Source of the DNA: a virus
DNA length: 23,490 nucleotides
IMG/VR virus record: IMGVR_UViG_3300004770_000118
Location: 1-23,490 of that record
Reading direction: 5' to 3' (one strand)
Part shown: positions 3,221 to 23,482 of the stretch, in pieces
How the letters are laid out: every line of letters starts with the position of its first letter
Numbering within the stretch: the stretch's first letter is position 1
Made by a program: the position numbers and the translations under genes
Notes under the pieces: generated by a model
Told to the model about the DNA's origin: nothing
Database searches by the model: none
Seen by the model: only the letters and a program-made list of their open reading frames with translations

Positions 3221-3807
3221 GGACTTTCTTTCAAAGAAAAAAAGTTATTATACTGGTCTTTTCCAACGAATTGATAGTTGAGTTCGTTTAATTTCTTCAT
3301 CAAAAGGTTGTTCTTCGCACCCGTTGTATATGTGCCGTCAGAATGATAGAACTCGTATTTTATCCTCTTTATGTTGAACTTAGGTAGGTCGGCTTGAAGT
3401 AGGATGTCAACGTCATAACCCTCACAGTCTATGAAAAAATAATCAATAACATCAAGGTTAATCGAAGTTAGTAAGTCGTTTATCGTTAAACATGGGACGA
3501 ATACGGAATAAGTCTGTGGGTGTTCGTGATTTTCTACATGAGCCTTACTCAATGAGGCGTGGGCTGAATGAAGTTCGCCTACTGGGAGAAAAAATTCGGC
3601 AATACCATTAGTCGTCCCAACGGCGACATTAACCGCTTTTATCTTATTACCCAAGAAAGAGTATTTCTCCTTAGCTATCGTAATAGCCTCTTGAGAGGCG
3701 TCAATAACAACAAAGGTTCCTATTTTTTCATCATTGTTTTTTATGAAGTCAAATACCTCATCTTTACAATCGTCGCAGCCTATTTGGATAATATTGAGCT
3801 TTTTCAT
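3217..3807 (-). CDS. FkbM-family methyltransferase (second copy)
   Basis: A 196-residue protein with a shortened N-terminal SAM-binding part (IIQIGCDDC near 6-14, VVIDAS near 33-38) and an intact FkbM landmark YFFIDCEGYDVDILL (about 123-137). It is only distantly similar to the FkbM protein at 964-1665 but, unlike that copy, keeps the Asp and Glu-Gly of the motif. Probably O-methylates a sugar or small metabolite. Its ATG overlaps the TGA of the upstream sigma-like gene by 4 nt (ATGA), so the two are translationally coupled. Confidence 0.85.
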   Translation of the reverse strand: MKKLNIIQIGCDDCKDEVFDFIKNNDEKIGTFVVIDASQEAITIAKEKYSFLGNKIKAVNVAVGTTNGIAEFFLPVGELHSAHASLSKAHVENHEHPQTYSVFVPCLTINDLLTSINLDVIDYFFIDCEGYDVDILLQADLPKFNIKRIKYEFYHSDGTYTTGAKNNLLMKKLNELNYQFVGKDQYNNFFSLKESP

Positions 3808-4433
3808 ACCATATCACAGATATTTTCAACACTGGTAATTTTATTTTTAATTAAAGAGATTCCTTTTCGATGTAGAGACATGACGGTTTGCGGGGAAGTG
3901 TGCATCTTCTTGGCGATATTTCCCCAAATCATCTTCTTTGCATGAAAATAGCGATACTCGAAGATGGTCTTAATCCTCTTATCCTTTAATTGATTCAGGA
4001 TGCTAAAAATGTAATCGCGGCTTTCCTCAAGACTTGGGCCGCTTTCAAAATACTTTTGGCAGATTTGCTGTTCTTCAATTCTTTGTCTGACTTCATCATC
4101 GGGCGAGGGAATCAAAAGCTTTTTTGAGTTCATGGAGTTCAAGCAAAGATACCTAGCATAGTTACCAATCCAAGAAGAAAGTTTCGTTTTCTTACTGGGT
4201 TTAAAAGTCCTGACACAATGCAAAATGATGATATTTTTCTCATTGAAAATATCCTGAACATAAATACCGCAAGAAGAAAGGGATGCGGCATACTTTTGAC
4301 AAACCTTGTAAAACAAATCTTCGTAACGGTCACAAATTTCAACGAAGGCTTCGCTTGAAGCTTTCTGCTTCACTTGCCTAATCAAATAAGAATCGCTGCG
4401 CTCAGATAATGGTTTAGATGTTCGCCTTTGCAT
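3804..4433 (-). CDS. Sigma-70-like RNA polymerase sigma factor (regions 2 and 4)
   Basis: A 209-residue protein organised like a small sigma factor. The first ~110 residues form a region-2-like helical bundle (AFVEICDRYEDLFYKVCQKY near 29-48, SSWIGNYARYLCLN near 86-99). The C-terminal ~60 residues form a region-4 helix-turn-helix (WGNIAKKMHTSPQTVMSLHRKG near 169-190). It should direct host RNA polymerase to phage promoters (inference). First gene of the minus-strand operon, overlapping the FkbM gene by 4 nt. A second, different sigma-like gene lies at 9881-10438. Confidence 0.8.
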   Translation of the reverse strand: MQRRTSKPLSERSDSYLIRQVKQKASSEAFVEICDRYEDLFYKVCQKYAASLSSCGIYVQDIFNEKNIIILHCVRTFKPSKKTKLSSWIGNYARYLCLNSMNSKKLLIPSPDDEVRQRIEEQQICQKYFESGPSLEESRDYIFSILNQLKDKRIKTIFEYRYFHAKKMIWGNIAKKMHTSPQTVMSLHRKGISLIKNKITSVENICDMV

Positions 4434-5891: not shown

Positions 5892-7862
5892 ATGGACAAA
5901 AAAATTATCAACGGTCTTGAGGAGATGGCGAACTTCACGTTCACAACCAAATACGCCAAATACGAAGAGAAGAAGCAAAGAAGGGAAACTTGGGATGAAA
6001 CAGTTTCTCGTATTGAGAAGATGCACTTGAAGAAGTTTGCGTTTCTCTCTCAAAAGGACAAAGATGATATTATCAAGGCTTTTGATTTTGTTCGTATCAG
6101 AAAGGTCACTCCTTCAATGCGTTCAATGCAATTCGGTGGTAAGGCCGTTGAAGCGCATAACGGCAGACTTTTTAACTGTGGTGTTCGCCACATAGACTCA
6201 ATCCGCTCATTCGCTGAATCTTTCTATACCCTCCTTTGCGGAACTGGTGTTGGCTTCGGAATCACAAATCATTTTCTTAACCGCCTTCCTCGTCTCGTTA
6301 CGGCAGAAGATAAGACCGGAACAGTCATCACCTATGTCGTTCAAGATACTATTGAAGGATGGGGCGATTCAATCGAAGCTTTGATGAATTGCTATTTTCA
6401 AAATACTGCGTATTCAGGAAGAAAAATTGTTTTTGATTATAGCCGAATTCGCGCAAAGGGGGCGAAACTCAAGACTGGTGGCGGTAAAGCGCCCGGTTAC
6501 AAGGGCTTAAAGAACGCACACAAAAAAGTCAAGGCGATTCTCGATGCTATTATCGAAGATAATGGACAAACGCGCCTAAAGACAATTAACGCTTATGATA
6601 TTTTAATGCACTGCGCCGATGCCGTTTTGAGTGGTGGTATTCGCCGTAGTGCTTGCAGCGTTATCTTTGAAGCGACTGACGAAGATATGATGAACGCCAA
6701 GACTGGCGACTGGTTCAAGGAAAATCCGCAGAGAGCGAGAAGCAATAATTCCGCAATCATCATTCGCGGCAAGACCTCCTTCAAGGAGTTTGTTAATCTC
6801 ATTGAAAAGACAAAACAATTCGGGGAGCCGGGATTTCTCTACGTTGTTGATGAAAAGCAACTTTTGAATCCATGTTTTGAAATCTCTTTCATTCCCATTA
6901 CTGCTGATGGTCGTTGCGGATTTCAATTCTGTAACTTGACTTCTATCAATGGGTCTTTGGTCACTTCGTTGCAGGAATTTAAGGATGCTTCTTGGGCTGC
7001 TTCGCTAATTGGAACTCTCCAAGCAGCATATACTTCCTTTCCGTATCTTGGGCATACTTCCGAAGAACTCTCGAAGGAAGAGGCTCTTTTGGGTGTGTCT
7101 ATTACTGGCATGATGGACAACCCCGACGTTCTTTTCAATCCAAAGAATCAGAGGGAAGCGTCGAAGGTCGCCGTTGAGACAAATAAAGAATGGGCGAAGA
7201 AAATTGGAATCAATCAAGCTGCTCGCGCAACTTGCATCAAGCCAGAAGGCACGAACTCCATTGTTCTTTCCGCAGCATCGGGTATTCACCCGCATCACGC
7301 TCGCAAGTATTTTCGCCGTATTCAAGTGAACCACGACGACAATGTTTACAAGTTCTTTAAGATTTACAATCCACACGCTTGCGAACCTAGCGTATGGAGC
7401 GCAAATAAGACGGATGACGTTATTACGTTCCCAATTCAAGTCCCCGAAAAGGCTATGATTAAGAGCGACATTTCCGCCATCGAACACTTAAAATTAATTA
7501 AATTAACCCAAGAAAATTGGGTAAGCACCGGAACAACCGAAGCCAATAAGAAGCCATTGAACCACAGTGTAAGCTGCACAGTCATGGTTAAGGACGAGGA
7601 ATGGGAAGAAGTGACGAAGTTCCTGTTTGATAATCAGGCAGACTTTACGGCAGTTTCTCTATTGCCTAGCTCTGGTGACAAAATCTATAAGCAAGCCCCA
7701 ATGGAAGCAGTTCTAACTCCAGAGGACGAAGCTAAATTCGACGCGCTCCTCAAGGACTGGAATAGAGTTGACTACAAGAAGCTAGAAGAAAACGACGACG
7801 CTACAATGCACACGGCGGAAGCCGCTTGCGCTGGCGGTGCTTGCGAACTAACCAAGATTTAA
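5892..7862 (+). CDS. nrdJ: Class II (adenosylcobalamin-dependent) ribonucleotide reductase
   Basis: A 656-residue enzyme that makes deoxyribonucleotides from ribonucleotides using a cobalamin-generated thiyl radical, independent of oxygen. All expected residues are visible: C96 (LFNCG), NPCFE with C328 and E330, C342/C347 (RCGFQFCNL) for the paired active-site cysteine, SGGIRRSA near 247-254, IKPEGTNSI and the C-terminal relay pair C646/C651 (ACAGGAC). Overall order and the CxGGxC tail match monomeric Lactobacillus-type reductases, about 80 residues longer, so this is a compact version. Weak Shine-Dalgarno (GGAAAAG) about 10 nt before ATG. It would need host cobalamin. Followed 1 nt later by a 46-aa gene. 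Confidence 0.93.
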   Translation: MDKKIINGLEEMANFTFTTKYAKYEEKKQRRETWDETVSRIEKMHLKKFAFLSQKDKDDIIKAFDFVRIRKVTPSMRSMQFGGKAVEAHNGRLFNCGVRHIDSIRSFAESFYTLLCGTGVGFGITNHFLNRLPRLVTAEDKTGTVITYVVQDTIEGWGDSIEALMNCYFQNTAYSGRKIVFDYSRIRAKGAKLKTGGGKAPGYKGLKNAHKKVKAILDAIIEDNGQTRLKTINAYDILMHCADAVLSGGIRRSACSVIFEATDEDMMNAKTGDWFKENPQRARSNNSAIIIRGKTSFKEFVNLIEKTKQFGEPGFLYVVDEKQLLNPCFEISFIPITADGRCGFQFCNLTSINGSLVTSLQEFKDASWAASLIGTLQAAYTSFPYLGHTSEELSKEEALLGVSITGMMDNPDVLFNPKNQREASKVAVETNKEWAKKIGINQAARATCIKPEGTNSIVLSAASGIHPHHARKYFRRIQVNHDDNVYKFFKIYNPHACEPSVWSANKTDDVITFPIQVPEKAMIKSDISAIEHLKLIKLTQENWVSTGTTEANKKPLNHSVSCTVMVKDEEWEEVTKFLFDNQADFTAVSLLPSSGDKIYKQAPMEAVLTPEDEAKFDALLKDWNRVDYKKLEENDDATMHTAEAACAGGACELTKI

Positions 7863-8015: not shown

Positions 8016-8387
8016 GGGGATGCAATGATTCGACTTGTGAATAATAGGTTGCGTTGCGCGTAGTGGATGATAGTGGGCCACTTTAAAACACCTGTCAAAA
8101 CTCAACTGCTAACGCATTGAAATCGCTTGCTTTTAAGCCAGTAATGGCATTTGAAGCGGCTGCTGTCAGGGCCTAACCGCACTGACCCGTTTGCCTCTGG
8201 ATTCTCACTAAAGAGAGCAGACGAAATAGTGAGAAAAAACGCAGGGATACTTATGCGTAATTAAGCGTCAAAAACTCACGGAAGATGGACTGTTGGTTCC
8301 TATTCTGTGTTTTATGAAGTCCAACTACACGCGTAGAAACTTGGTCTGTTACCGCAAACACTCGGCTCGATGCCGACATCTCCACCA
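8016..8387 (+). ncRNA. ssrA: tmRNA (ribosome rescue RNA)
   Basis: A 372-nt one-piece tmRNA. The tRNA-like ends pair as GGGGATG (8016-8022) with CATCTCC (8377-8383), with a G3-U70-type wobble expected for alanine charging, then A and an encoded CCA (8385-8387). GATTCGACT near 8029 is the usual 5' landmark; the T-arm reads TCGG/CCGA around CTCGATG. The long P2 helix is seen as GCGCGTAG (8056-8063) with CTACACGC (8325-8332). The tag frame resumes at GCT 8108 and ends at TAA 8174-8176: 22 residues beginning ANALKSLAF and ending EAAAVRA. The tag lacks the LAA end used by ClpXP. It has its own promoter. It rescues stalled ribosomes by trans-translation. Confidence 0.9.
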
Positions 8388-8426: not shown

Positions 8427-8945
8427 ATGAAAACGATTATTGTAAGCTGCTCCTTCTGTTGTAGTCCAGTAGAAAAGTTACAAAAAGAAGTTAATAGAAG
8501 TAAAAAAGGAAGTGGGAAAATGTTTTGTAATCATAGTTGTTGTTGCTCTTACGGATTACAAGTAAGTCCAAGGAAAGGTAATGTAGAATATCTTAATGCC
8601 TCAAACCGCCTTGATTCTTTTAGTCCTTTCAAATATTTTATTTCAAAAGCAAAATCCAAACAAAGAATTGCTTCGTATGGCGAGACAGACCTAACTCTTG
8701 ATTATTTAAAAACTATATGGGAATCCCAAAAAGGCGAGTGTCCATATACAAAAAAGCCCATGTATTTGCCCCCAAATACCAAGAGTCATAATTACAAATC
8801 TTCTCCAAATCAAGCGTCTTTAGACAGAATAGATTCTTCCAAGGGGTATATTAAAGGAAACGTGGAATTTGTTTGTTTGGCCGTTAATTTGGCTAAAAAT
8901 CACTTTTCTAAAGCGGAAATGATGTCCTTTTTCGGTAAAGATTGA
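8427..8945 (+). CDS. Free-standing HNH homing endonuclease, tmRNA-adjacent
   Basis: A 172-residue protein. An N-terminal zinc finger is suggested by C8/C11 and C34/C38. The catalytic part reads GECPYTKKPM (about 103-112), then SLDRIDSSKGYIKGNVEF (131-148) and VNLAKNHF, the HNH variant common in phage homing endonucleases. It should nick or cut DNA at a specific site to spread its own gene. It starts 39 nt after the tmRNA 3' end and is clearly related to the HNH gene at 20627-21109, which also follows an alanine-type RNA. Probably leaderless. Confidence 0.85.
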   Translation: MKTIIVSCSFCCSPVEKLQKEVNRSKKGSGKMFCNHSCCCSYGLQVSPRKGNVEYLNASNRLDSFSPFKYFISKAKSKQRIASYGETDLTLDYLKTIWESQKGECPYTKKPMYLPPNTKSHNYKSSPNQASLDRIDSSKGYIKGNVEFVCLAVNLAKNHFSKAEMMSFFGKD

Positions 8946-9880: not shown

Positions 9881-10438
9881 ATGTCAAACAAAGACTTTGA
9901 GGAAAAAATCGGAGGCGCGTTGGAAAAGGCGAGGAAGTATCTCTTATCGAGATACCAATTCACTTATTCAAATTCTGACATAGACGATATTTTGCAAGAG
10001 GCTTCCTTAAAGGCGATGAAGAAACTTAATTCTTTCCAAGAAAAGTGTTCTTTTGATACTTGGTTTATTTCAATTTGCAAGACGGAAGCCACGGCAATCT
10101 TCCGAAAAAACAAGAAGCACGAAACATATTTTTCCAAGGATGCTACGGAGACGGACAAAGAGTTTTTCTGCGAAGAATCGCCCGTTAAGAGAAAAAGCGA
10201 ACTGGATGAATGTCTGTATCTCGTAAATAATGCTTTAAGCAAGCTAAACGAAAAGAACAGAAAAATTATTGAGTTCGCTATGGAGAACTCCAATTCCTCA
10301 AAAGAAATCGCGGAACTTTTACATATCCCAATTAACTCTGCCAGAACACGCCTCTTTTATGCAAAAAAAAGATTGAAGAAAATACTTTTGCAAAATAATC
10401 AACTACCGTGTAATAAGTATTGTAGTTTTGATTTTTAA
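9881..10438 (+). CDS. ECF-type sigma factor
   Basis: A 185-residue protein with the two-domain build of ECF sigma factors. Region 2: SDIDDILQEASLKAMKKL (about 32-49) and FDTWFISICKTEATAIFR (about 58-75), which bind the -10 element and core polymerase. Region 4: CLYLVNNALSKLNEKNRKII (about 111-130) and SSKEIAELLHIPINSARTR (about 139-157), the helix-turn-helix for the -35 element. It has its own TTGACA promoter. Its tail NKYCSFDF is unusual. Probably directs a later gene class (inference). Confidence 0.85.
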   Translation: MSNKDFEEKIGGALEKARKYLLSRYQFTYSNSDIDDILQEASLKAMKKLNSFQEKCSFDTWFISICKTEATAIFRKNKKHETYFSKDATETDKEFFCEESPVKRKSELDECLYLVNNALSKLNEKNRKIIEFAMENSNSSKEIAELLHIPINSARTRLFYAKKRLKKILLQNNQLPCNKYCSFDF

Positions 10439-12913: not shown

Positions 12914-14068
12914 TTACTTCGTTTCTTCTTTGCGTTCAGGATTTGTTTTTTCGCTAGAACCTTCGTTGTTAGTCTTGTTCACAACGGTTTCATCTTCATA
13001 AGAAGGTTTTGAATTGACGAGTTTTGGCATACTCTTAATGAGTTCGTCTTGGCGATAGAAGGTTTTGCCATCCCAATCGGCATCGGCCTTCGGGTCAGTA
13101 ACCTTTTCGGTATAAAAGTCGGCCATTTGGTCAAGGGTCTGTTCCTTAGCTTCCGCAGCCAAAGCTGGATTGACCTTTGCTCCCCAATACAACGGCATCC
13201 ATCTTGGGCCGATGTTGGTCGGGTCGCTCGCTTGGCAAGCATTGAAACCTACGCGAACGATTTCTTCCTTGTCGTTCTTAACATAAACGGCGTATGCCGT
13301 CTTGCCTGTTGGAGTCTTAAACGGCTTGTTCAAGACCTTCTTTTCCTTCGTCGAGGCGATAGACGCCGACATATCAATGACTGTGTTCATATTATTTGTT
13401 TTTTTATTTAAAGCGTCTTCGATAAGACTCCCAATGTTTATATTACACTCTTTTGCGCTCGAAAGCTGATTTTTTGGAGGCGTGAAATTATCTTTACCAT
13501 CTTGGCATTGTTTTGGCAAATAATGGTCGCCAATCCACTTTTTGTCGTCTCCCTTAGTTTCAAGCTGCAAAGAGCCTATTTTGCCTTGAGGAACGCCGTC
13601 ATCGCCTCTATAACCGCTCACAGGGTATTCTGCGATGCTTGAGGTGGGTTTCATGTTTGGACTCACTGGCACAGGGTTTCCAGAGGGATAAATGGTATGA
13701 TAGGCGTCAAGCGGGGTTGGCATCATCTTTTCACCAGAAGCGGCGAAATCTTCCTTTCTGTGCCATTGCTGGTCAAATAAATCGAGTCTAATCCTGTCAT
13801 TGTCAACAGTCGTCCCCTTTTGAGCCATCGTTTCCTTTGGCAAGAGGTCTTTGGTCATATCTAGTTGAGCCTTAAAGAAATCCGCGCTTTCCTTTTTGGG
13901 GTCGCGTTCCTTGAGGACTGTTTTAACAGAAGCTCCTTCATAGAAGAAATCATCAGCTTTTTCTTCTTTGATTGTTTTAGCTTTACTCTTATCTTTCCAA
14001 TACTGTTTTCTCCAAGAGTCAGGTTGCTCATCGTCAAAGAGGTCTATATTTTTTGACATATTTGCCAT
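12914..14068 (-). CDS. Unrecognised 384-aa charged phage protein
   Basis: Start chosen at 14068 (MANMSKNIDLF) because a -10 box TATTAT on the minus strand (14079-14074) ends 5 nt before it, matching the other leaderless genes here; ATG 14059 is the alternative. The first ~230 residues are lysine/aspartate-rich with low complexity and likely flexible (LFDDEQPDSWRKQYW, then proline-rich PSGNPVPVSPNMKP). A compact domain follows near 245-340 (TPTGKTAYAVYVKNDKEEIV, DPTNIGPRWMPLYWGAK). The last 45 residues are again charged. Possibly an internal virion or scaffold-like protein; this is a guess from composition. Confidence 0.65.
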   Translation of the reverse strand: MANMSKNIDLFDDEQPDSWRKQYWKDKSKAKTIKEEKADDFFYEGASVKTVLKERDPKKESADFFKAQLDMTKDLLPKETMAQKGTTVDNDRIRLDLFDQQWHRKEDFAASGEKMMPTPLDAYHTIYPSGNPVPVSPNMKPTSSIAEYPVSGYRGDDGVPQGKIGSLQLETKGDDKKWIGDHYLPKQCQDGKDNFTPPKNQLSSAKECNINIGSLIEDALNKKTNNMNTVIDMSASIASTKEKKVLNKPFKTPTGKTAYAVYVKNDKEEIVRVGFNACQASDPTNIGPRWMPLYWGAKVNPALAAEAKEQTLDQMADFYTEKVTDPKADADWDGKTFYRQDELIKSMPKLVNSKPSYEDETVVNKTNNEGSSEKTNPERKEETK

Positions 14069-14950: not shown

Positions 14951-15412
14951 ATGAAGAAAATTCTATCTCTCGTAGCAGTAGTCGGATTGTCCCTGACGCT
15001 TCTCACTGGCTGCGTCACAAACGGCAATACCAGCAACAATGTTGCAGCGGAACACGCCCTAATCACATTAGCGGCTTCAACAGGAACGGAAATTGATTTG
15101 CAGAGCCGCCCTCAAGATGCGATTTATTTCGTCGGCGCGGAACAGGCTTTGGGAACAATCGGGACTGGCACAGACCAAATTACGGCCTCAACAGTTCAAG
15201 CGGCTTTGAATGACGCTGGCGTTACAAACCCAATTATCGCTTCTGCGATTACGGAAGCAATCAGTTTGGGCAATACGTTTATTGTAAATAGTGCAGGAAC
15301 AAACGCGCCAGCGGCACTTGTCGCCACGAAAGCGGTTTGTGTGGATATTTCGACTGGTATTCATCAGGGACTCGTCCTTTCTGGCAGAGCCACTGTTCAC
15401 AAGAGCAAATAA
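14951..15412 (+). CDS. Lipoprotein with signal peptidase II site
   Basis: A 153-residue protein beginning MKKILSLVAVVGLSLTLLTGC: charged n-region, hydrophobic core, and lipobox LTGC with the lipidated Cys at 21. C is followed by VTN, with no Asp at +2, so outer-membrane sorting is expected in Gram-negatives. The mature region is alanine/threonine/glycine-rich and helical (ITASTVQAALNDAGV, AIITEAISLGNTF-like segments) with no recognised enzyme motif. Its TAA overlaps the patatin ATG (TAATG), so the two are coupled and may act together at the envelope. Confidence 0.8.
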   Translation: MKKILSLVAVVGLSLTLLTGCVTNGNTSNNVAAEHALITLAASTGTEIDLQSRPQDAIYFVGAEQALGTIGTGTDQITASTVQAALNDAGVTNPIIASAITEAISLGNTFIVNSAGTNAPAALVATKAVCVDISTGIHQGLVLSGRATVHKSK

Positions 15413-16323
15413 TGGAAGCCTTAGCTCTACAAGGCGGGGGCGTTCTTGGTTACGGTCAATCCGTAATCTTAACGGAGCTTGAAAAGGTCGCGCAGAAACC
15501 CTGCGCGGCCATTTTCGATATTATCGGCGGGACTTCCGTTGGTTCCATTAACGCCGCCCACTTAGCTGCCGGAATCCCAGCGAGCCAATTACAATCCTTC
15601 TTCACCATTAAGGCTCCTGAAATCTTCAAATCTACCCTATTCAACAAAATAAGTCAATTATGGGGTGCGAAGTATTCAGCCGCTCCGATTGAAAAAGCCC
15701 TTCAAGAGTGTCTAGGTGATAGGACTTTAGCTGATTGCAAAACAAAATTCATTGCCACGGCTTATGATTGGAAGTCCGATAGACCAGTCTATTTCAAGTC
15801 ATACGAAAAGTCGTTTCAAACCAAGGACTATATCATCATTGGTTATGATGACCCGATTAAGCTTTGGCAAGTTTGTAGGGCTTCTTCTGCCGCTCAAACA
15901 TACTTCCCCGCGTATCAATACGAAGGTTACGTCTTGATGGACGGAGGCAACATTGGAGACAACGACCCCGATATGCTGGTAATAGCAGAATCATCAGAGT
16001 ATGTTAAATCCTTGAGTAAGCTTAATTTACTTTCTTTGGGCGCTGGTGATACGAAATGGGCCGAATCAGCATCTACGATGATAAATCCTAGCGTGGCTGT
16101 TGCGGGTATTAAGACAATTACCATTGTATTTTCCGCTGGTGAATCTTCCGAAGTCTATAAGGCATCGAAAATTTTAGGTGACAATTACTGCCGCCTATCC
16201 CCCGACTTGGGCAATGGATATGCTATTGATGACGCCTCTAAAGCTACGCTAGACCTACTTAAAACTGCATCTGACTTGGTAATTTCAAATAACCCCTTAC
16301 TTTTTAAGAAGTTATTCACATAA
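15412..16323 (+). CDS. Patatin-like phospholipase
   Basis: A 303-residue lipid acyl hydrolase. All patatin landmarks are present: oxyanion loop QGGGVLGYG (7-15), nucleophile elbow GTSVG with S42, and the catalytic Asp in MDGGN (D177). Start at 15412 is set by the TAATG overlap with the lipoprotein gene; the frame extends further upstream without need. No signal peptide, so it should act in the cytoplasm or at the inner membrane face, hydrolysing phospholipid acyl chains. In this lysis/envelope neighbourhood it may help lysis or alter membranes (inference); patatins also occur in anti-phage systems, but no partner of those is here. Confidence 0.88.
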   Translation: MEALALQGGGVLGYGQSVILTELEKVAQKPCAAIFDIIGGTSVGSINAAHLAAGIPASQLQSFFTIKAPEIFKSTLFNKISQLWGAKYSAAPIEKALQECLGDRTLADCKTKFIATAYDWKSDRPVYFKSYEKSFQTKDYIIIGYDDPIKLWQVCRASSAAQTYFPAYQYEGYVLMDGGNIGDNDPDMLVIAESSEYVKSLSKLNLLSLGAGDTKWAESASTMINPSVAVAGIKTITIVFSAGESSEVYKASKILGDNYCRLSPDLGNGYAIDDASKATLDLLKTASDLVISNNPLLFKKLFT

Positions 16324-20148: not shown

Positions 20149-20222
20149 GCGGTATTGATGTAATAGTAGCCTCTGACATTGCCAATGTTAGTGCATCGGG
20201 GCAGAACCGATATACCGCTCCA
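20149..20222 (+). tRNA. tRNA-Gly(GCC)
   Basis: Acceptor GCGGTAT pairs perfectly with ATACCGC; discriminator U73 and encoded CCA fit glycine. Anticodon arm TGACA/TGTTA holds loop TTGCCAA (anticodon GCC). T-arm ATCGG/CCGAT with loop GGCAGAA: G instead of U at 54 and 55. D-loop contains AGT where GGT is usual. Confidence 0.85.
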
Positions 20223-20225
20223 ATT

Positions 20226-20338
20226 TCGGTCATAGTAATAGCGAGTTCTCTAGGGCAGTAGCTCTATGCCCAATCAAAGTCATTTCGACATGGGAGTATT
20301 CGGGGATTTCTTCTCGCCCCTAGCAACTATGACTGAAT
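20226..20338 (+). ncRNA. Oversized folded element in the array, no CCA
   Basis: CGGTCATAG and CTATGACTG form a 9-bp closing stem around about 90 nt containing GGGCA/TGCCC and GGGG/CCCC hairpins. It has tRNA-like ends but no CCA, no 7-nt anticodon loop and no T-loop that I can see. It ends with the same AATTT linker as the tRNAs. Confidence 0.45.
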
Positions 20339-20349
20339 TTAATTTTCAT

Positions 20350-20421
20350 ACATCCACGTTCAAGGGAACAATACCGCCTCCAAAACGGTAGAGTGGGGAG
20401 CGTTACCTCATGGATGTGCCA
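20350..20421 (+). tRNA. tRNA-Trp(CCA)
   Basis: Acceptor ACATCCA/TGGATGT perfect, G73 and CCA. Anticodon loop CTCCAAA (anticodon CCA); stem ACCGC/ACGGT with a C-A mismatch at 31-39. T-arm TGGGG/CCTCA with loop AGCGTTA (G55, C56). Short D-arm TTC/GAA with loop AAGG. Confidence 0.85.
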
Positions 20422-20425
20422 TTTT

Positions 20426-20505
20426 ATCAGTTTCCCTGTTGAGGGGAGTCTCTGCTAGAAAGCGTAAGTCAGACGCTTGGATGGGTTAAAGTCCCAACGA
20501 CCCAA
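20426..20505 (+). pseudogene. Degenerate tRNA-like element, Ser(GCT)-like
   Basis: Has a D-arm-like CCC/GGG with G-T in the loop, a CTGCTAG loop, a long variable-arm hairpin AAGCGT/ACGCTT, and a T-arm TGGG/CCCA with loop TTAAAGT. No acceptor stem can be formed from the flanks. Loop features suggest a decayed class II tRNA. Confidence 0.4.
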
Positions 20506-20510
20506 ATTTC

Positions 20511-20585
20511 GGGGGTGTGGCTAGACTAGGATGCACCGCGTTTGCAACGCGTTTTATGGGAGTGCGAATCTCCTCACCTCCACCA
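20511..20585 (+). tRNA. tRNA-Ala(TGC), first copy
   Basis: Acceptor GGGGGTG/CACCTCC with the G3-U70 alanine identity pair, A73 and CCA. Anticodon loop TTTGCAA (TGC). T-arm GGGAG/CTCCT with loop TGCGAAT: U55 replaced by G. It ends 41 nt before the HNH gene at 20627. Confidence 0.88.
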
Positions 20586-20592
20586 TTTTTAT

Positions 20593-20621
20593 TTCACATT
20601 CTCCACCGATTTCTGTATAAT
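20593..20621 (+). promoter_or_regulatory. Promoter of the array HNH gene
   Basis: TTCACA (20593-20598), 17 bp, TATAAT (20616-20621); ATG follows 5 nt later, so a leaderless mRNA is predicted. Confidence 0.75.
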
Positions 20622-20626
20622 AAGAT

Positions 20627-21109
20627 ATGCACGATGGAACGCCAAAGCAATTTGTTGAATTGACCTGTAAAAAATGCGGAAACCTTTTTCAAAAAGAAAA
20701 GAAGGAATATGACAGGCAAGTGCGTAAGGGTCGTAAAGATTTTTACTGTAATTTGAAGTGCGCTGGCGTGACGAAAGAATCAAAGTCAGATGCTCCATTT
20801 AAGTTTATGTGGAGAATATCAAGGCAAAATTCAATAAAAAGGAAACACGATTTTAACTTATCCGTAAAAGATATTGAAGATTTGTGGGAGAAGCAAAAAG
20901 GAAAATGCGCCTATACAGGAATACCACTAATATCTCCTACTTACAAACATCTTTCGTCTCCAAGGAAAGCTTCGTTAGACCGAATTGATTCTTCTAAGGG
21001 ATATGTAAAAGGAAATATCGAATTTGTTTGTGTTTTTGTCAATCTTGGAAAGAACGGATTTAATAAAAAAGAAATCTTTGATTTGTTACAAGAATTTAAG
21101 AAAAATTAA
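20627..21109 (+). CDS. Free-standing HNH homing endonuclease within the tRNA array
   Basis: A 160-residue protein: zinc finger C14/C17 and C41/C45 (LTCKKCG, FYCNLKC), then KGKCAYTGIPL and SLDRIDSSKGYVKGNIEF (116-133), VNLGKNGFNKKE. It is a clear relative of the tmRNA-adjacent protein at 8427-8945 (the SLDRIDSSKGY block is shared). It lies between two tRNA-Ala(TGC) genes, 41 nt after one and 4 nt before the other, and carries its own promoter. Likely cuts a site in or near an alanine tRNA gene lacking the insertion (inference). Confidence 0.87.
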   Translation: MHDGTPKQFVELTCKKCGNLFQKEKKEYDRQVRKGRKDFYCNLKCAGVTKESKSDAPFKFMWRISRQNSIKRKHDFNLSVKDIEDLWEKQKGKCAYTGIPLISPTYKHLSSPRKASLDRIDSSKGYVKGNIEFVCVFVNLGKNGFNKKEIFDLLQEFKKN

Positions 21110-21113
21110 AAAC

Positions 21114-21191
21114 GGGAAATGGGACTGCTTGGAGTGGTCATCGCACTTGCAATGCGAATACAGATGGGTTCGATGCCCATATTTTCCACCA
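21114..21191 (+). tRNA. tRNA-Ala(TGC), second copy, canonical loops
   Basis: Acceptor GGGAAAT/ATTTTCC with G3-U70, A73, CCA. D-arm GACT/GGTC with GG in the loop; anticodon stem TCGCA/TGCGA, loop CTTGCAA (TGC); T-arm ATGGG/CCCAT with the standard loop TTCGATG. It differs from most of the array by having U55 and G18-G19. Confidence 0.93.
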
Positions 21192-21333
21192 ATTAACCCC
21201 GCGAGAGGATAGAATCGCTCGCCTGACGCAGTAATGCGTCTCTCAATTTAAGTAAGGCGATTGCAGTCGGCTTCCTGCATGACTAGAAGAACGGAGAATA
21301 TGAAATATCTAGTCTTGCTACACAAAATTTAAT
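21192..21333 (+). ncRNA. Two folded non-tRNA segments between tRNAs
   Basis: First segment (to about 21245): GCGAG/CTCGC and GACGC/GCGTC hairpins, then AATTT. Second (21250-21330): AGTAAGG could pair with TCTTGCT, followed by A and CAC instead of CCA; inside are TGCAG/CTGCA and GACTAG/CTAGTC hairpins but no T-arm. A 10-codon ATG frame with GGAG upstream lies at about 21300. Probably a decayed tRNA plus an unknown element. Confidence 0.35.
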
Positions 21334-21419
21334 GCGTCGTTATACCGTAGTAGTAGCGGGACAGACTGTAAATCTGTTACTTAACAGTTCGGGGGGTGCG
21401 ACTCCCTCACGGCGCACCA
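21334..21419 (+). tRNA. tRNA-Tyr(GTA), class II
   Basis: Acceptor GCGTCGT/ACGGCGC, A73, CCA. D-stem CCG/CGG, loop TAGTAGTAG. Anticodon stem ACAGA/TCTGT, loop CTGTAAA (GTA), followed by a long variable arm as in bacterial tRNA-Tyr. T-loop TGCGACT (G55). Confidence 0.88.
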
Positions 21420-21423
21420 TTTT

Positions 21424-21500
21424 CGGCGTGATAGTAGAAGTATCGAACTGTCTGACTGTAAATCAGATGCAAGTAAGTGTGAGCCTTACCGCGCCGACCA
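21424..21500 (+). tRNA. tRNA with GTA anticodon, class I, C1-G72
   Basis: Acceptor CGGCGTG/CGCGCCG starting with a C1-G72 pair, A73, CCA. D-stem AGT/ACT. Anticodon stem TCTGA/TCAGA, loop CTGTAAA (GTA). Variable loop is short. T-arm GTAAG/CTTAC, loop TGTGAGC (G55, U56). Anticodon says Tyr, but class I shape and C1-G72 are unlike bacterial tRNA-Tyr. Confidence 0.8.
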
Positions 21501-21508
21501 ATTTTTAT

Positions 21509-21585
21509 GGTGATACTAATGTAGAAGTCTAGCATCTCTCCCTGTGAAGGAGATTGGACGGGAGCGTTACCCGTGTGTCACCCCA
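21509..21585 (+). tRNA. tRNA-His(GTG)
   Basis: G at -1 (21509) opposite C73, the histidine signature, then acceptor GTGATAC/GTGTCAC and CCA. Anticodon stem TCTCC/GGAGA, loop CTGTGAA (GTG). T-arm ACGGG/CCCGT, loop AGCGTTA. D-loop TAGAAGTCTAG. Confidence 0.9.
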
Positions 21586-21589
21586 ATTT

Positions 21590-21660
21590 GCGCCGTATCC
21601 TTGCGAGGGGAACAAGTTTCCAGCAAGGCTAGTTCCGAGGCGTGGCAAAATATCGGATTT
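21590..21660 (+). ncRNA. Folded non-tRNA segment
   Basis: GCGCC/GGCGT can close a 55-nt element containing the hairpin CCTTGC/GCAAGG; no anticodon or T-loop is visible and GCA replaces CCA. Function unknown. Confidence 0.3.
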
Positions 21661-21667
21661 GATTTAC

Positions 21668-21745
21668 GTCCCAGTAATGGCCGCGCTTGCGAAGCGTTGT
21701 GTGCATAATTGGATTATGAAAGTTCGACTCTTTCTTGGGACACCA
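21668..21745 (+). tRNA. tRNA-like gene, anticodon unclear
   Basis: Acceptor GTCCCAG/TTGGGAC, A73, CCA, and a canonical T-arm GAAAG/CTTTC with loop TTCGACT. The middle is odd: hairpin CGC-TTGCGAA-GCG (would read GCG, Arg) and hairpin CATA-ATTGGAT-TATG (would read TGG, Pro) with no normal D-arm. Identity cannot be fixed. Confidence 0.55.
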
Positions 21746-21751
21746 ATTTGC

Positions 21752-21828
21752 CAGTTATTAAACTGGATGGTGGAGGCGGCGGAAACGTCGCCCTATAAGA
21801 GTGCCTGTCCTCAAAATGACTAGGCCCG
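21752..21828 (+). ncRNA. Folded non-tRNA segment
   Basis: CCAGTT/AACTGG with an ATTA loop and GGCGGCG/CGTCGCC with a GAAA tetraloop, then about 40 nt without clear pairing. Linker-like ATTT follows. Not a tRNA. Confidence 0.35.
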
Positions 21829-21832
21829 ATTT

Positions 21833-21908
21833 GCACTATTAGCTCAATGTATAGAGCCTCACGCATCGAACGTGAATGATATAGGTTAGAGTCCTTTATA
21901 GTGTGCCA
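21833..21908 (+). tRNA. tRNA-Arg(TCG)
   Basis: Acceptor GCACTAT/ATAGTGT (G1-U72 wobble), G73, CCA. D-stem GCTC/GAGC, loop AATGTATA. Anticodon stem TCACG/CGTGA, loop CATCGAA: anticodon TCG with A instead of U at 33. T-loop TTAGAGT: C56 is A, matched by U at D-loop position 19. Confidence 0.8.
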
Positions 21909-21914
21909 ATTTAC

Positions 21915-22006
21915 GGGAGTATAATGTAAAGAACATCGTGGGACTTATAAACCCAAGCGCACATGATAAGTGCCGTATGTCGGAGCGTTACCGACTACTC
22001 CTACCA
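21915..22006 (+). tRNA. Class II tRNA, loop suggests anticodon TAT
   Basis: Acceptor GGGAGTA/TACTCCT, A73, CCA; D-stem ATGT/ACAT; long variable arm GCAC/GTGC; T-arm GTCGG/CCGAC with loop AGCGTTA. Anticodon arm TGGGA/ACCCA (A-A mismatch at 31-39), loop CTTATAA. UAU would read AUA (Ile), but the long variable arm is unlike tRNA-Ile; identity uncertain. Confidence 0.7.
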
Positions 22007-22011
22007 TTTAC

Positions 22012-22096
22012 CGCATCGTGACATAAGCGCGAATTACAACAGCCACTAGCCTCAAAAACTAGAGTTTTGGGAGTGGAAGTCTCCCCGATGCGACCA
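22012..22096 (+). tRNA. tRNA with CAA anticodon (Leu-like), extended D region
   Basis: Acceptor CGCATCG/CGATGCG perfect with C1-G72, A73, CCA. Anticodon loop CTCAAAA (CAA), stem CTAGC/ACTAG with C-A at 31-39. D region about 9 nt longer than usual, containing AATTACAA as in the tRNA at 22321. Short variable loop. T-arm GGGAG/CTCCC, loop TGGAAGT (G55, G56). Confidence 0.7.
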
Positions 22097-22102
22097 ATTT
22101 AT

Positions 22103-22192
22103 GCCGCTATGGTGAAAGAGCAGACACACCAGTTTGAGAGACTGGCGCGAAGTAATAGTAGCGTGTAGGTGCGATTCCTACTAGCGGCACCA
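22103..22192 (+). tRNA. tRNA-Leu(GAG)
   Basis: Acceptor GCCGCTA/TAGCGGC perfect, A73, CCA. Anticodon stem CCAGT/ACTGG, loop TTGAGAG (GAG); long variable arm as expected for Leu. T-arm GTAGG/CCTAC, loop TGCGATT. D-arm GTG/CAC resembles Leu tRNAs but has AGC in place of GGT. Confidence 0.88.
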
Positions 22193-22200
22193 AAATTTAT

Positions 22201-22311
22201 TTGGGATTGGCGAAAGTATAAACGCAAGAGAGTTATGTCTCTGGTTTCATAGTGACTTCGCGCGAAGATTATGAAATGCTGCTCCGATGAAAAGCCGAGC
22301 ATCCTGAACCA
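22201..22311 (+). tRNA. Oversized tRNA-like element with CCA
   Basis: 111 nt. Acceptor TTGGGAT/ATCCTGA (two wobbles), A73, CCA; D-arm GCG/CGC; anticodon-like hairpin AGAGA/TCTCT with 6-nt loop GTTATG; a very large variable arm TTTCATA/TATGAAA with inner CTTCG/CGAAG; T-arm replaced by GCTC/GAGC with a 12-nt loop. May be a remodelled class II tRNA. Confidence 0.45.
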
Positions 22312-22320
22312 ATTTTTTAT

Positions 22321-22407
22321 GGCAGTATGGCGAAATTACAAGACGCACCGCGCTTAGAACGCGGCGGTAGAAATACCGTGGGGGTGGAAGTCCCTCTACT
22401 GCTACCA
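22321..22407 (+). tRNA. tRNA-Leu(TAG)
   Basis: Acceptor GGCAGTA/TACTGCT, A73, CCA. D-arm GCG/CGC with AC where GG is usual. Anticodon stem CCGCG/CGCGG, loop CTTAGAA (TAG); variable arm CGGTA/TACCG. T-loop TGGAAGT: G56 matches C19. Confidence 0.9.
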
Positions 22408-22416
22408 ATTTAGTTA

Positions 22417-22492
22417 GGTCTATTGTTGAATGAGTTTATCTTGCTGCCCTGTCACGGCGGCGTAACGGGTGCGAGTCCCGTATAGACCGCCA
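22417..22492 (+). tRNA. tRNA-Asp(GTC)
   Basis: Acceptor GGTCTAT/ATAGACC perfect, G73 (Asp identity), CCA. Anticodon stem CTGCC/GGCGG, loop CTGTCAC (GTC), identical to typical tRNA-Asp. T-arm ACGGG/CCCGT, loop TGCGAGT. D-loop has AGT for GGT. Confidence 0.9.
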
Positions 22493-22493
22493 A

Positions 22494-22563
22494 TTTCGGG
22501 TGATGTAAGCAGCATAGCGCGTGTAAAAGCGCGTGAGTATGGGTGCAAGTCCCATCCCTTAAA
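22494..22563 (+). pseudogene. Degenerate tRNA-like element with 8-nt anticodon loop
   Basis: D-arm ATG/CAT, loop TAAGCAG; hairpin GCGC/GCGC with 8-nt loop GTGTAAAA; T-arm ATGGG/CCCAT with loop TGCAAGT. Acceptor stem TTTCGGG/CCCTTAA has two mismatches and no CCA follows. Confidence 0.5.
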
Positions 22564-22570
22564 TTATTTT

Positions 22571-22628
22571 TGTTTGACGGAGAGTATAAACCCCGTTAGC
22601 CAGCGGCTTTAAAGCTGCCAGAATTATT
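22571..22628 (+). ncRNA. Short folded segment
   Basis: ACGG/CCGT hairpin and a near-palindrome centred on TTTAAA (CAGC/GCTG). No T-arm or CCA. Possibly a tRNA fragment with a Lys(TTT)-like loop; weak. Confidence 0.25.
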
Positions 22629-22629
22629 T

Positions 22630-22705
22630 GGGCATGAAGGTAAAAAGTGGAACCGTTCCGTTGTCTGCGGAAAAACAGTGGGTGCGACTCCCATTATGCC
22701 CGCCA
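22630..22705 (+). tRNA. tRNA with GTC anticodon (second Asp)
   Basis: Acceptor GGGCATG/TATGCCC, G73, CCA. D-stem GGT/ACC, loop AAAAAGTGGA. Anticodon stem TTCCG/CGGAA, loop TTGTCTG (GTC, but T at 37 where a purine is expected). T-arm GTGGG/CCCAT, loop TGCGACT. Confidence 0.8.
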
Positions 22706-22708
22706 TTT

Positions 22709-22815
22709 TACTGAAGGATTCCGTAATTGATTCCTGTTGTGTCTCAATTACGCTCGCTTGGGAGAACGTCGAGTTCAGACAAGTTGCATGGTAATACCTA
22801 GAGTCCTCGTTAATT
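22709..22815 (+). ncRNA. Folded non-tRNA segment
   Basis: CGTAATTG/CAATTACG, an 8-bp stem with a 15-nt loop, and CTCG/CGAG downstream; ends in AATTT. Not tRNA. Function unknown. Confidence 0.35.
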
Positions 22816-22817
22816 TC

Positions 22818-22895
22818 GGTCAGTGAGGGAGTAAGAGAACCCCGACGCCTGCAAAGCGTCTCGTATAATTGGCGCAATACCAATACTGACCTCCA
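22818..22895 (+). tRNA. tRNA-Cys(GCA)
   Basis: Acceptor GGTCAGT/ACTGACC perfect, U73 (Cys identity), CCA. D-stem GGG/CCC, loop AGTAAGAGAA. Anticodon stem GACGC/GCGTC, loop CTGCAAA (GCA). T-arm ATTGG/CCAAT, loop CGCAATA (G55, C56). Confidence 0.9.
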
Positions 22896-22902
22896 ATTTG
22901 AT

Positions 22903-22962
22903 GCCAGTTGGGACGACAACCCAACCAATCGCCTCGTCAGTGTTTTGGGGCTGGCGTTTTTT
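22903..22962 (+). terminator. Compound hairpin followed by T6
   Basis: GCCAG (22903-22907) and CTGGC (22951-22955) enclose a GTTGGG/CCCAAC hairpin, then GTTTTTTATC. It could end or slow transcription within the array, or act as a processing site. Confidence 0.35.
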
Positions 22963-23047
22963 ATCGGTTTGCCAAATGAAAGTTTGGTTTCAAGCGGTTG
23001 GGGGTGAGAAGCCCCGTGTGACGCTGAACGTAAGTGACCGCTCTTTA
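22963..23047 (+). ncRNA. Folded segment, T-arm-less tRNA-like shape
   Basis: CCAAA/TTTGG hairpin, then AGCGGTT/GACCGCT enclosing GGGG/CCCC and a second weak hairpin. The 7-bp closing stem resembles an acceptor stem, but there is no anticodon loop, T-arm or CCA. Confidence 0.3.
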
Positions 23048-23125
23048 CGGTGTGTAGGGAAAAAGTGAACCCACCTGTTCTGGAAACAGGCTATTAAGTC
23101 GGAGCGTTACCGACCATGCCGACCA
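23048..23125 (+). tRNA. tRNA-Pro(TGG)
   Basis: Acceptor CGGTGTG/CATGCCG with C1-G72 and A73 as in bacterial tRNA-Pro, CCA. D-stem GGG/CCC, loop AAAAAGTGAA. Anticodon stem CCTGT/ACAGG, loop TCTGGAA (TGG, with C instead of U at 33). T-loop AGCGTTA. Confidence 0.82.
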
Positions 23126-23128
23126 TTT

Positions 23129-23200
23129 CGCTTGGAGAATGAGATTCAAGCAAGCCTCATAAGCTTGCCCCCGTAGGTGCGACTCCTACCCTTGCACCCA
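23129..23200 (+). tRNA. tRNA-Met/Ile(CAT), short form
   Basis: Anticodon stem CAAGC/GCTTG, loop CTCATAA (CAT). T-arm GTAGG/CCTAC, loop TGCGACT. Acceptor CGCTTGG/CCTTGCA has C1-A72 and two T-T mismatches; C73; CCA. Could be initiator-like or Ile2; acceptor mismatches lower confidence in function. Confidence 0.7.
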
Positions 23201-23254
23201 ATTTGCTACCAAACATTCATCCAAAGTTAATTCCTCGGATGGATAGACGCAAAG

Positions 23255-23305
23255 TAGGCTGACACAAAAAGTAAGTCTTAAAGAGCGCGATGTAAGCGCA
23301 GCCTA
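23255..23305 (+). ncRNA. Mini tRNA-like element without T-arm
   Basis: TAGGCT/AGCCTA stem encloses a D-arm-like GAC/GTC with loop ACAAAAAGTAA and a hairpin GCGC/GCGC with 7-nt loop GATGTAA (TGT, Thr-like). The T-arm is missing and no CCA follows. Upstream (23214-23240) is a CATCC/GGATG hairpin. Confidence 0.35.
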
Positions 23306-23314
23306 ATAATTTAT

Positions 23315-23403
23315 CGCAGGAACAAGCCGGAAGACGCTAAAGAGGCTCATAACCTCTGCATTGCAAGATGCTATGTGTGGTGTAACTCCACTTTCTGCAA
23401 CCA
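23315..23403 (+). tRNA. tRNA-Met(CAT), initiator-like C1-A72
   Basis: Acceptor CGCAGGA/TTCTGCA pairs except C1-A72, the hallmark of bacterial initiator tRNA; A73; CCA. Anticodon stem AGAGG/CCTCT, loop CTCATAA (CAT), identical to initiator loops. A long variable arm GCAT/ATGC is atypical. T-loop TGTAACT (G55, U56). Confidence 0.78.
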
Positions 23404-23407
23404 TTTC

Positions 23408-23482
23408 GTGTAAGTGACAGAAAAGTGATGTATCTGCCTTCCAAGCAGACTCAAGTGGGAGCGTTACCCATCTTACACTCCA
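23408..23482 (+). tRNA. tRNA-Gly(TCC)
   Basis: Acceptor GTGTAAG/CTTACAC perfect, U73, CCA. D-stem ACA/TGT, loop GAAAAGTGA. Anticodon stem TCTGC/GCAGA, loop CTTCCAA (TCC). T-arm GTGGG/CCCAT, loop AGCGTTA. The array continues past the window. Confidence 0.9.

Follow-up and report, generated by a model that had tools for sequence, protein, structure and literature searches.

The stretch of DNA analysed here (the window) is the complete virus record IMGVR_UViG_3300004770_000118 of IMG/VR, 23,490 bases long, and it carries at positions 20149–23478 an array of about 20 transfer RNA (tRNA) genes, all on the + strand, whose members mostly have G instead of T at position 55 of the T-loop (G in 17 of 20, T in three). 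The array was delineated by two scans and reading by eye. A cloverleaf scanner that disregards loop sequence gave 17 matches in the window at a score of at least 34; 16 of them fall at 20149–23478 and the 17th, at 13191, is weak and at chance level, and a dinucleotide-shuffled control of the array region produced one match in six trials. A looser scan for an acceptor stem and T-arm added the genes at 21668, 21915 and 22012. ARAGORN detects six array genes. A covariance-model search, the kind of check that an earlier sequence-only reading of this DNA had proposed, gave nine matches in the array with Rfam RF00005, seven of them over its cut-off. A tRNA array unit comprises at least 20 tRNA genes at a density of at least 2 per kb; the window holds about 20 in 3.3 kb by scan and reading (six by ARAGORN alone). 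The members are as follows.

20149..20218, + strand: tRNA-Gly(GCC); T-loop GGCAGAA (G54.G58, G55), D-loop AATAGTA (A18 G19); cloverleaf scan.
20350..20417, + strand: tRNA-Trp(CCA)-like; T-loop AGCGTTA (G55), D-loop short; cloverleaf scan.
20511..20581, + strand: tRNA-Ala(TGC); T-loop TGCGAAT (G55), D-loop GACTAGG, retains G3.U70; ARAGORN, Rfam, cloverleaf scan.
21114..21187, + strand: tRNA-Ala(TGC); canonical elbow, G18 G19 / T55 C56; ARAGORN, cloverleaf scan.
21334..21415, + strand: tRNA-Tyr(GTA); T-loop TGCGACT (G55), D-loop GTAGTAGTA (A18 G19); Rfam, cloverleaf scan.
21424..21496, + strand: tRNA-Tyr(GTA)-like; T-loop TGTGAGC (G55, U56), D-loop GAAGTATCG; cloverleaf scan.
21510..21581, + strand: tRNA-His(GTG); T-loop AGCGTTA (G55), D-loop AGAAGTCTA, retains G-1 and C73; cloverleaf scan.
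21668..21741, + strand: tRNA-Arg(GCG)-like, without a normal D-arm; T-loop TTCGACT (T55); Rfam, looser scan.
21833..21904, + strand: tRNA-Arg(TCG); G18 U19 / U55 A56, 19-56 swapped to U-A; ARAGORN, Rfam, cloverleaf scan.
21915..22002, + strand: tRNA, anticodon probably TAT; T-loop AGCGTTA (G55), long variable arm; looser scan.
22012..22092, + strand: tRNA-Leu(CAA)-like; T-loop TGGAAGT (G55 G56), D-region contains AATTACAAC (A18 C19); looser scan.
22103..22188, + strand: tRNA-Leu(GAG); T-loop TGCGATT (G55), D-loop AAGAGCAG; ARAGORN, Rfam, cloverleaf scan.
22321..22403, + strand: tRNA-Leu(TAG); T-loop TGGAAGT (G55 G56), D-loop AATTACAAG (A18 C19), two elbow pairs swapped; ARAGORN, Rfam, cloverleaf scan.
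22417..22488, + strand: tRNA-Asp(GTC); T-loop TGCGAGT (G55), D-loop ATGAGTTTA; ARAGORN, Rfam, cloverleaf scan.
22630..22701, + strand: tRNA with anticodon GTC; T-loop TGCGACT (G55), D-loop AAAAGTGG; Rfam, cloverleaf scan.
22818..22891, + strand: tRNA-Cys(GCA); T-loop CGCAATA (G55), D-loop GTAAGAGA, U73; cloverleaf scan.
23048..23121, + strand: tRNA-Pro(TGG); T-loop AGCGTTA (G55), D-loop AAAAGTGA, C1-G72; cloverleaf scan.
23129..23200 (ends approximate), + strand: tRNA-Met(CAT)-like; T-loop TGCGACT (G55), D-arm reduced, acceptor stem mismatched; by eye, in no scan.
23315..23399, + strand: tRNA-Met(CAT)-like; T-loop TGTAACT (G55 U56); cloverleaf scan.
23408..23478, + strand: tRNA-Gly(TCC); T-loop AGCGTTA (G55), D-loop AAAAGTG (A18 G19), U73; cloverleaf scan.

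The sequence-only reading had counted about 17 array tRNAs with G55, a figure that the scans and reading confirm, and every T-loop it listed was found, including AGCGTTA five times (20350, 21510, 21915, 23048 and 23408). The A18-G19 that it described in the D-loops of the same genes holds for most loops that can be numbered, the numbering of 18-19 being uncertain for short or long D-loops. The exceptions are 20350 and 21915, each with a D-loop of 5 nucleotides (nt); 22321, where A18-C19 faces G56 in a compensated 19-56 swap; and 21424, with T18-A19 and T56. Two of the three T55 members, Ala 21114 (GG with T55) and Arg 21833 (G18 and T19 with T55 and A56), agree with that reading at position 18; the third is 21668. 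The 19-56 pair of the window genes is Watson-Crick, mostly G-C, with U-A at 21833 and C-G at 22321, a few D-loops being uncertain. The D-arm is missing or strongly reduced in the tRNA-like genes at 21668–21741 and about 23129–23200.

In other respects these genes look like tRNAs. The 16 cloverleafs have the RF00005 architecture (7/4/5/5 stems, a 7-nt T-loop and T33), acceptor stems are free of mismatches in 15 of the 16, and all ten window tRNAs tested have an encoded CCA end and a discriminator base matching the anticodon. What most of the array lacks is the conserved G18-U55 contact of the family (17 of 20 have G55). The RF00005 label stands for the window tRNAs, as a variant elbow in which this contact appears to have been replaced.

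Related phage records carry the same change. G55 is found in 20 of 21 array tRNAs of record G009, whose tRNA-Ala is 83% identical to the one at 20511..20581; in 17 of 19 of G014, whose tRNA-Asp is 88% identical to that of the window and retains the swap; in 19 of 30 of G015 and in 9 of 13 of G017. The arrays of G013 and G018–G022 are mainly canonical with a few G55 genes, and together with the mostly-G55 relatives they indicate that canonical and G55 states are both present within single genomes. A Salmonella phage homologue of the tRNA-Tyr at 21334..21415 has T55.

The proposal that the 18-55 contact was swapped as a unit was to be given up if related phages showed no association between the two positions; a strong association was found instead. 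In the phage arrays, A18/G55 occurs 65 times, G18/T55 73 times, G18/C55 once and A18/T55 never, and the lone G18/G55 gene has a D-loop, GTAGGAGTA, that is equally readable as A18-G19. Because choosing 18-19 by their letters might bias such a table, we restricted the count to 7-nt D-loops, in which the numbering is forced. There, A18 occurs solely with G55 (24 of 24) and G18 solely with U55 (69) or C55 (4), with one T18/T55; positions 19 and 56 were G and C in 95 cases, with one each of A:T, T:A and T:G. We then calculated corrected mutual information over all 2346 position pairs of 184 phage and cellular tRNAs with a 7-nt D-loop, from which pattern-selected baits had been removed and whose viral loci were partly picked by T-loop pattern, not by D-loop. 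The first 18 ranks are stem pairs and 18-55 is 19th, ahead of every other tertiary contact: 54-58 is 20th, the Levitt pair 15-48 27th, 8-14 30th and 19-56 35th. Mutual information for 18-55 was 0.79, against a maximum of 0.11 over 1000 permutations, and weighting at 80% identity left 172 effective sequences, so the signal is not one family repeatedly counted.

Other elbow contacts change in a compensated manner as well. Phage and cellular tRNAs that lack C56 mostly have a matching change at 19, with a few misfits, and the combinations of 18-19 with 55-56 include AC-GG (22321 and relatives), GT-TA (21833 and relatives), GA-TT, GC-TG and AA-GT. At 54.58, a U.A contact goes with a pyrimidine at position 60, and A.U and G.G go mostly with A60. 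Among the IMG/VR pattern matches inspected, a set without a denominator, no true uncompensated 18/55 intermediate was found. An IMG/VR-wide census of 18/55 by GCTC..GAGC patterns was discarded, its matches having turned out to be G18 read in a shifted register or TGC lying elsewhere than in the T-loop.

These data bear on the idea that the genes are degenerate pseudogenes whose similarity is due to chance, which we consider very improbable. It would account for the modest yield of the gene finders (six genes by ARAGORN and nine by Rfam out of about 20) and for the few members with poor D-arms, but the stems and identity bases are intact, so is the tertiary covariation, and relatives have the same swap; as far as the alignments can tell, the covariation already contradicts it.

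The elbow is confined neither to this phage nor to phages as a group: on present sequences, A18/G55 also occurs in cells, in arrays of Verrucomicrobia, in individual chromosomal tRNAs of Patescibacteria, SAR11 and Mollicutes, and in Omnitrophota. Our cellular survey was a pattern-selected genome-wide scan with at least 80 loci, many of them from metagenome-assembled genomes (MAGs), and 76 of the 80 loci tabulated are good cloverleafs. Among the matches listed, A18/G55 is carried by tRNA-Met and tRNA-Cys of Patescibacteria, tRNA-His of SAR11 and of Bacilli MAGs, tRNA-Cys of Omnitrophota, and tRNA-Ile of a Steroidobacteraceae and of an Endomicrobium MAG. Verrucomicrobia MAGs have at least 12 loci with whole or partial arrays, in which 110 of 112 tRNAs are not T55, whereas position 56 is changed in 12 of 112; two of these genomes have the array on a single contig and about 45 better-scoring tRNAs elsewhere. 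One such array (L524, contig PLTX01000063) is flanked by genes for an integrase, an SNF2 helicase, HipA and a DNA methylase, surroundings that look like a defence-type island. A phage ribonucleotide reductase, sought in the Verrucomicrobia array genomes as a sign that the array belonged to the same phage, was not found there. Cultured phage arrays of similar size are canonical (0 of 75 swapped). The cultured Erwinia phages Cronus and IT22 have one tRNA-Met with AGTAGTA/TGCAACT, and its 79% identical homologue in a Kolesnikvirus reads AGTGGTA/TTCAATT, a clean double change.

Some of the cellular examples are the only tRNAs of their kind. The single tRNA-His of the SAR11 isolate HIMB114 is A18/G55. 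So are four tRNAs of Mycoplasma SG1 (L523, L515), those for Gln, Asp and Glu and the one that reads UGA, each without a second gene of its kind; the sole Pro tRNA of this Mycoplasma has G55 and a 6-nt D-loop. In the same Mycoplasma, 19-56 swaps occur in Ile(GAT), Asn and some Gly, Trp and Leu tRNAs, and its single-copy tRNAs show a broad range of them (U-A, A-U, C-G) besides A18/G55. A sole essential tRNA has to pass through charging, delivery and decoding in ordinary translation, and the A18/G55 elbow therefore reads as a working alternative, not decay. In the phage G55 tRNAs, the discriminator base agrees with bacterial identity in 66 of 75 (shuffle mean 31, maximum 43), and G3.U70 is retained in all five G55 tRNA-Ala of the set.

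It had also been suggested that altered EF-Tu use might take these tRNAs out of translation. A natural precedent is the staphylococcal non-proteinogenic tRNA-Gly that serves the cell wall, a bacterial tRNA that likewise lacks G18-G19, having UU or CU at 18-19 according to the account of Giannouli 2009 given in PMC4052509. As portrayed there, that tRNA is uncompensated and confined to one amino-acid species, whereas most isoacceptors described here carry A18-G19 as a compensated change, and the arrays cover most amino acids. This elbow is shared by the sole essential tRNAs of HIMB114 and Mycoplasma SG1, which the ribosome cannot do without; diversion through weak EF-Tu binding is therefore improbable, and that part of the suggestion is not supported.

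Pseudouridine 55 (Psi55) is described as the most universal tRNA modification. Because position 55 is not U, its formation by TruB is impossible on these tRNAs, so that the loss of the TruB site, claimed from the outset, follows directly; A18 in place of G18 likewise precludes Gm18. An array of another phage, L102 (IMGVR_UViG_3300012008_000022), has ten of 19 members without T55, many of them G18 with C55, which by its letters is a second route to losing U55 and the TruB site; about half of the L102 genes combine C55 and G18 with the absence of an encoded CCA. No phage-borne TruB or EF-Tu was found in 18 phage records. Loss of TruB from bacteria was considered as a general cause and rejected: among the matches listed, 29 of 50 genomes with A18/G55 tRNAs keep it. 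TruB is present in HIMB114 and in Verrucomicrobia with such tRNAs, and was not detected in Mycoplasma SG1.

Coupled with one another, the co-varying positions, the retained stems and amino-acid identity bases, and an elbow shared with sole essential cellular tRNAs suggest that the phage array probably folds to the usual L-shape via an alternative elbow. In such an elbow A18.G55 would take over from G18.U55, G19-C56 would be kept or traded for another Watson-Crick pair, and the 54.58 contact would be U.A, A.U or G.G. Two observations weigh against this. The window members with odd D-arms (20350, 21668, 21915, 22012 and about 23129) may be in decay, and a few G55 tRNAs among the 86 cellular seven-nt loops listed do not follow the pairing (G/G 6, C/G 2, T/G 1), probably as D-loops that have lost residue 18. 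A third bears on the selective reason for the swap: Mycoplasma SG1, without detected TruB, has many swaps, so that compensated drift can yield them.

Why whole arrays should have been converted is a separate matter. Conversion of mobile arrays, in phage and genomic island alike, is near-wholesale, and selection may have favoured tRNAs that escape host enzymes reading the canonical elbow, whether these modify tRNAs or are defence tRNases. The ribosome, EF-Tu and RNase P, relying on shape and the exposed 19-56 pair, would still accept such tRNAs. Such evasion is a genuine possibility, although we hold it tentatively; we favour it, and there are two precedents: mutations in the anticodon loop let phage tRNAs evade tRNases (van den Berg 2023, PMC10264068), and AriB reads D-loop residue 16 base-specifically (PMC12409363). 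The tRNAs of van den Berg resemble those described here in being functional despite changes at possible recognition letters of host enzymes, but their changes sit in the anticodon loop and not, with compensation, in the elbow. We give equal weight as the cause of conversion to neutral compensated drift, a possible but unassured explanation in which redundant, weakly constrained arrays lose all but structure-preserving double changes and no enzyme is evaded. Drift would fit the like swaps in sole tRNAs of Mycoplasma SG1, with its reduced genome, and the high-scoring tRNAs that accompany the Verrucomicrobia arrays. It sits less easily with conversion that is near-complete at 55 (19 of 19 in G009 and 110 of 112 in the Verrucomicrobia arrays) and about one in ten at 56, with the unmismatched acceptor stems and retained identity bases, or with the canonical state of cultured arrays. 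More doubtful is the broader idea that mobile arrays form a pool of elbow-rewritten tRNAs, in which compensated exchange at 18, 54, 55 and 58, and sometimes 19 and 56, would block modification or destruction by the host and preserve use by the ribosome.

tRNA array units of phages, plasmids and islands have been described as dense many-isoacceptor clusters with HNH-type genes nearby and a proposed anti-defence role (PMC5966550, PMC12803027). The window array is like them in being a dense mobile cluster with HNH-type genes nearby and differs in its rewritten elbow in nearly every member; neither paper mentions T-loop or D-loop changes. Compared with the canonical elbow (G18.Psi55, G19-C56), the architecture of the D-loop and T-loop, the stacking positions and the 19-56 pair are common to both, whereas in window-type tRNAs 18-55 is A.G (or G.C), there is no TruB site, and 54.58 is often A.U or G.G. 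The Steinberg group reportedly selected E. coli suppressor tRNAs from libraries with random D- and T-loop sequences, with alternative 54-58 and elbow combinations functional in vivo. Those tRNAs arose by artificial selection, whereas the elbow here is natural and widespread. A literature search, which did not reach the older papers on selected suppressor tRNAs, found no prior description of A18-G55; such work may have seen similar combinations.

The window is probably a fragment of a large phage, because relatives of its ribonucleotide reductase (5892–7862, similar to adenosylcobalamin-type phage enzymes; 76–87% identity) sit on contigs of up to 354 kb; no near-identity match to the window was found among deposited phages. 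A transfer-messenger RNA (tmRNA) gene at 8016–8387 (Rfam, 64.7 bits) has the T-loop CTCGATG and retains U55, so not every tRNA-like RNA of the phage has undergone the swap; by eye, it may encode a 22-residue tag, ANALKSLAFKPVMAFEAAAVRA, without the usual LAA ending. Two related open reading frames, by eye HNH-like, lie inside the tRNA array (20627–21109) and just after the tmRNA (8427–8945), the latter without a match in a Pfam search. The window further contains a patatin-like phospholipase (15337–16323) and two sigma-70-like factors (3804–4433 and 9881–10438).

The 18-55 contact and Psi55 are described as universally conserved (reviews PMC4810234, PMC7912444), and the strongest tertiary covariation in this tRNA set is at that very contact. 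The change is met both in phages and in cultured bacteria, where sole essential tRNAs carry it. The many natural double mutants that replace G18.Psi55 make the need for Psi55 and for the 18-55 contact directly testable, and A18/G55 offers an alternative elbow for engineered tRNAs. The array is also a warning that many phage tRNAs are missed by gene finders. More generally, it prompts one to ask what led mobile arrays to give up the canonical elbow.

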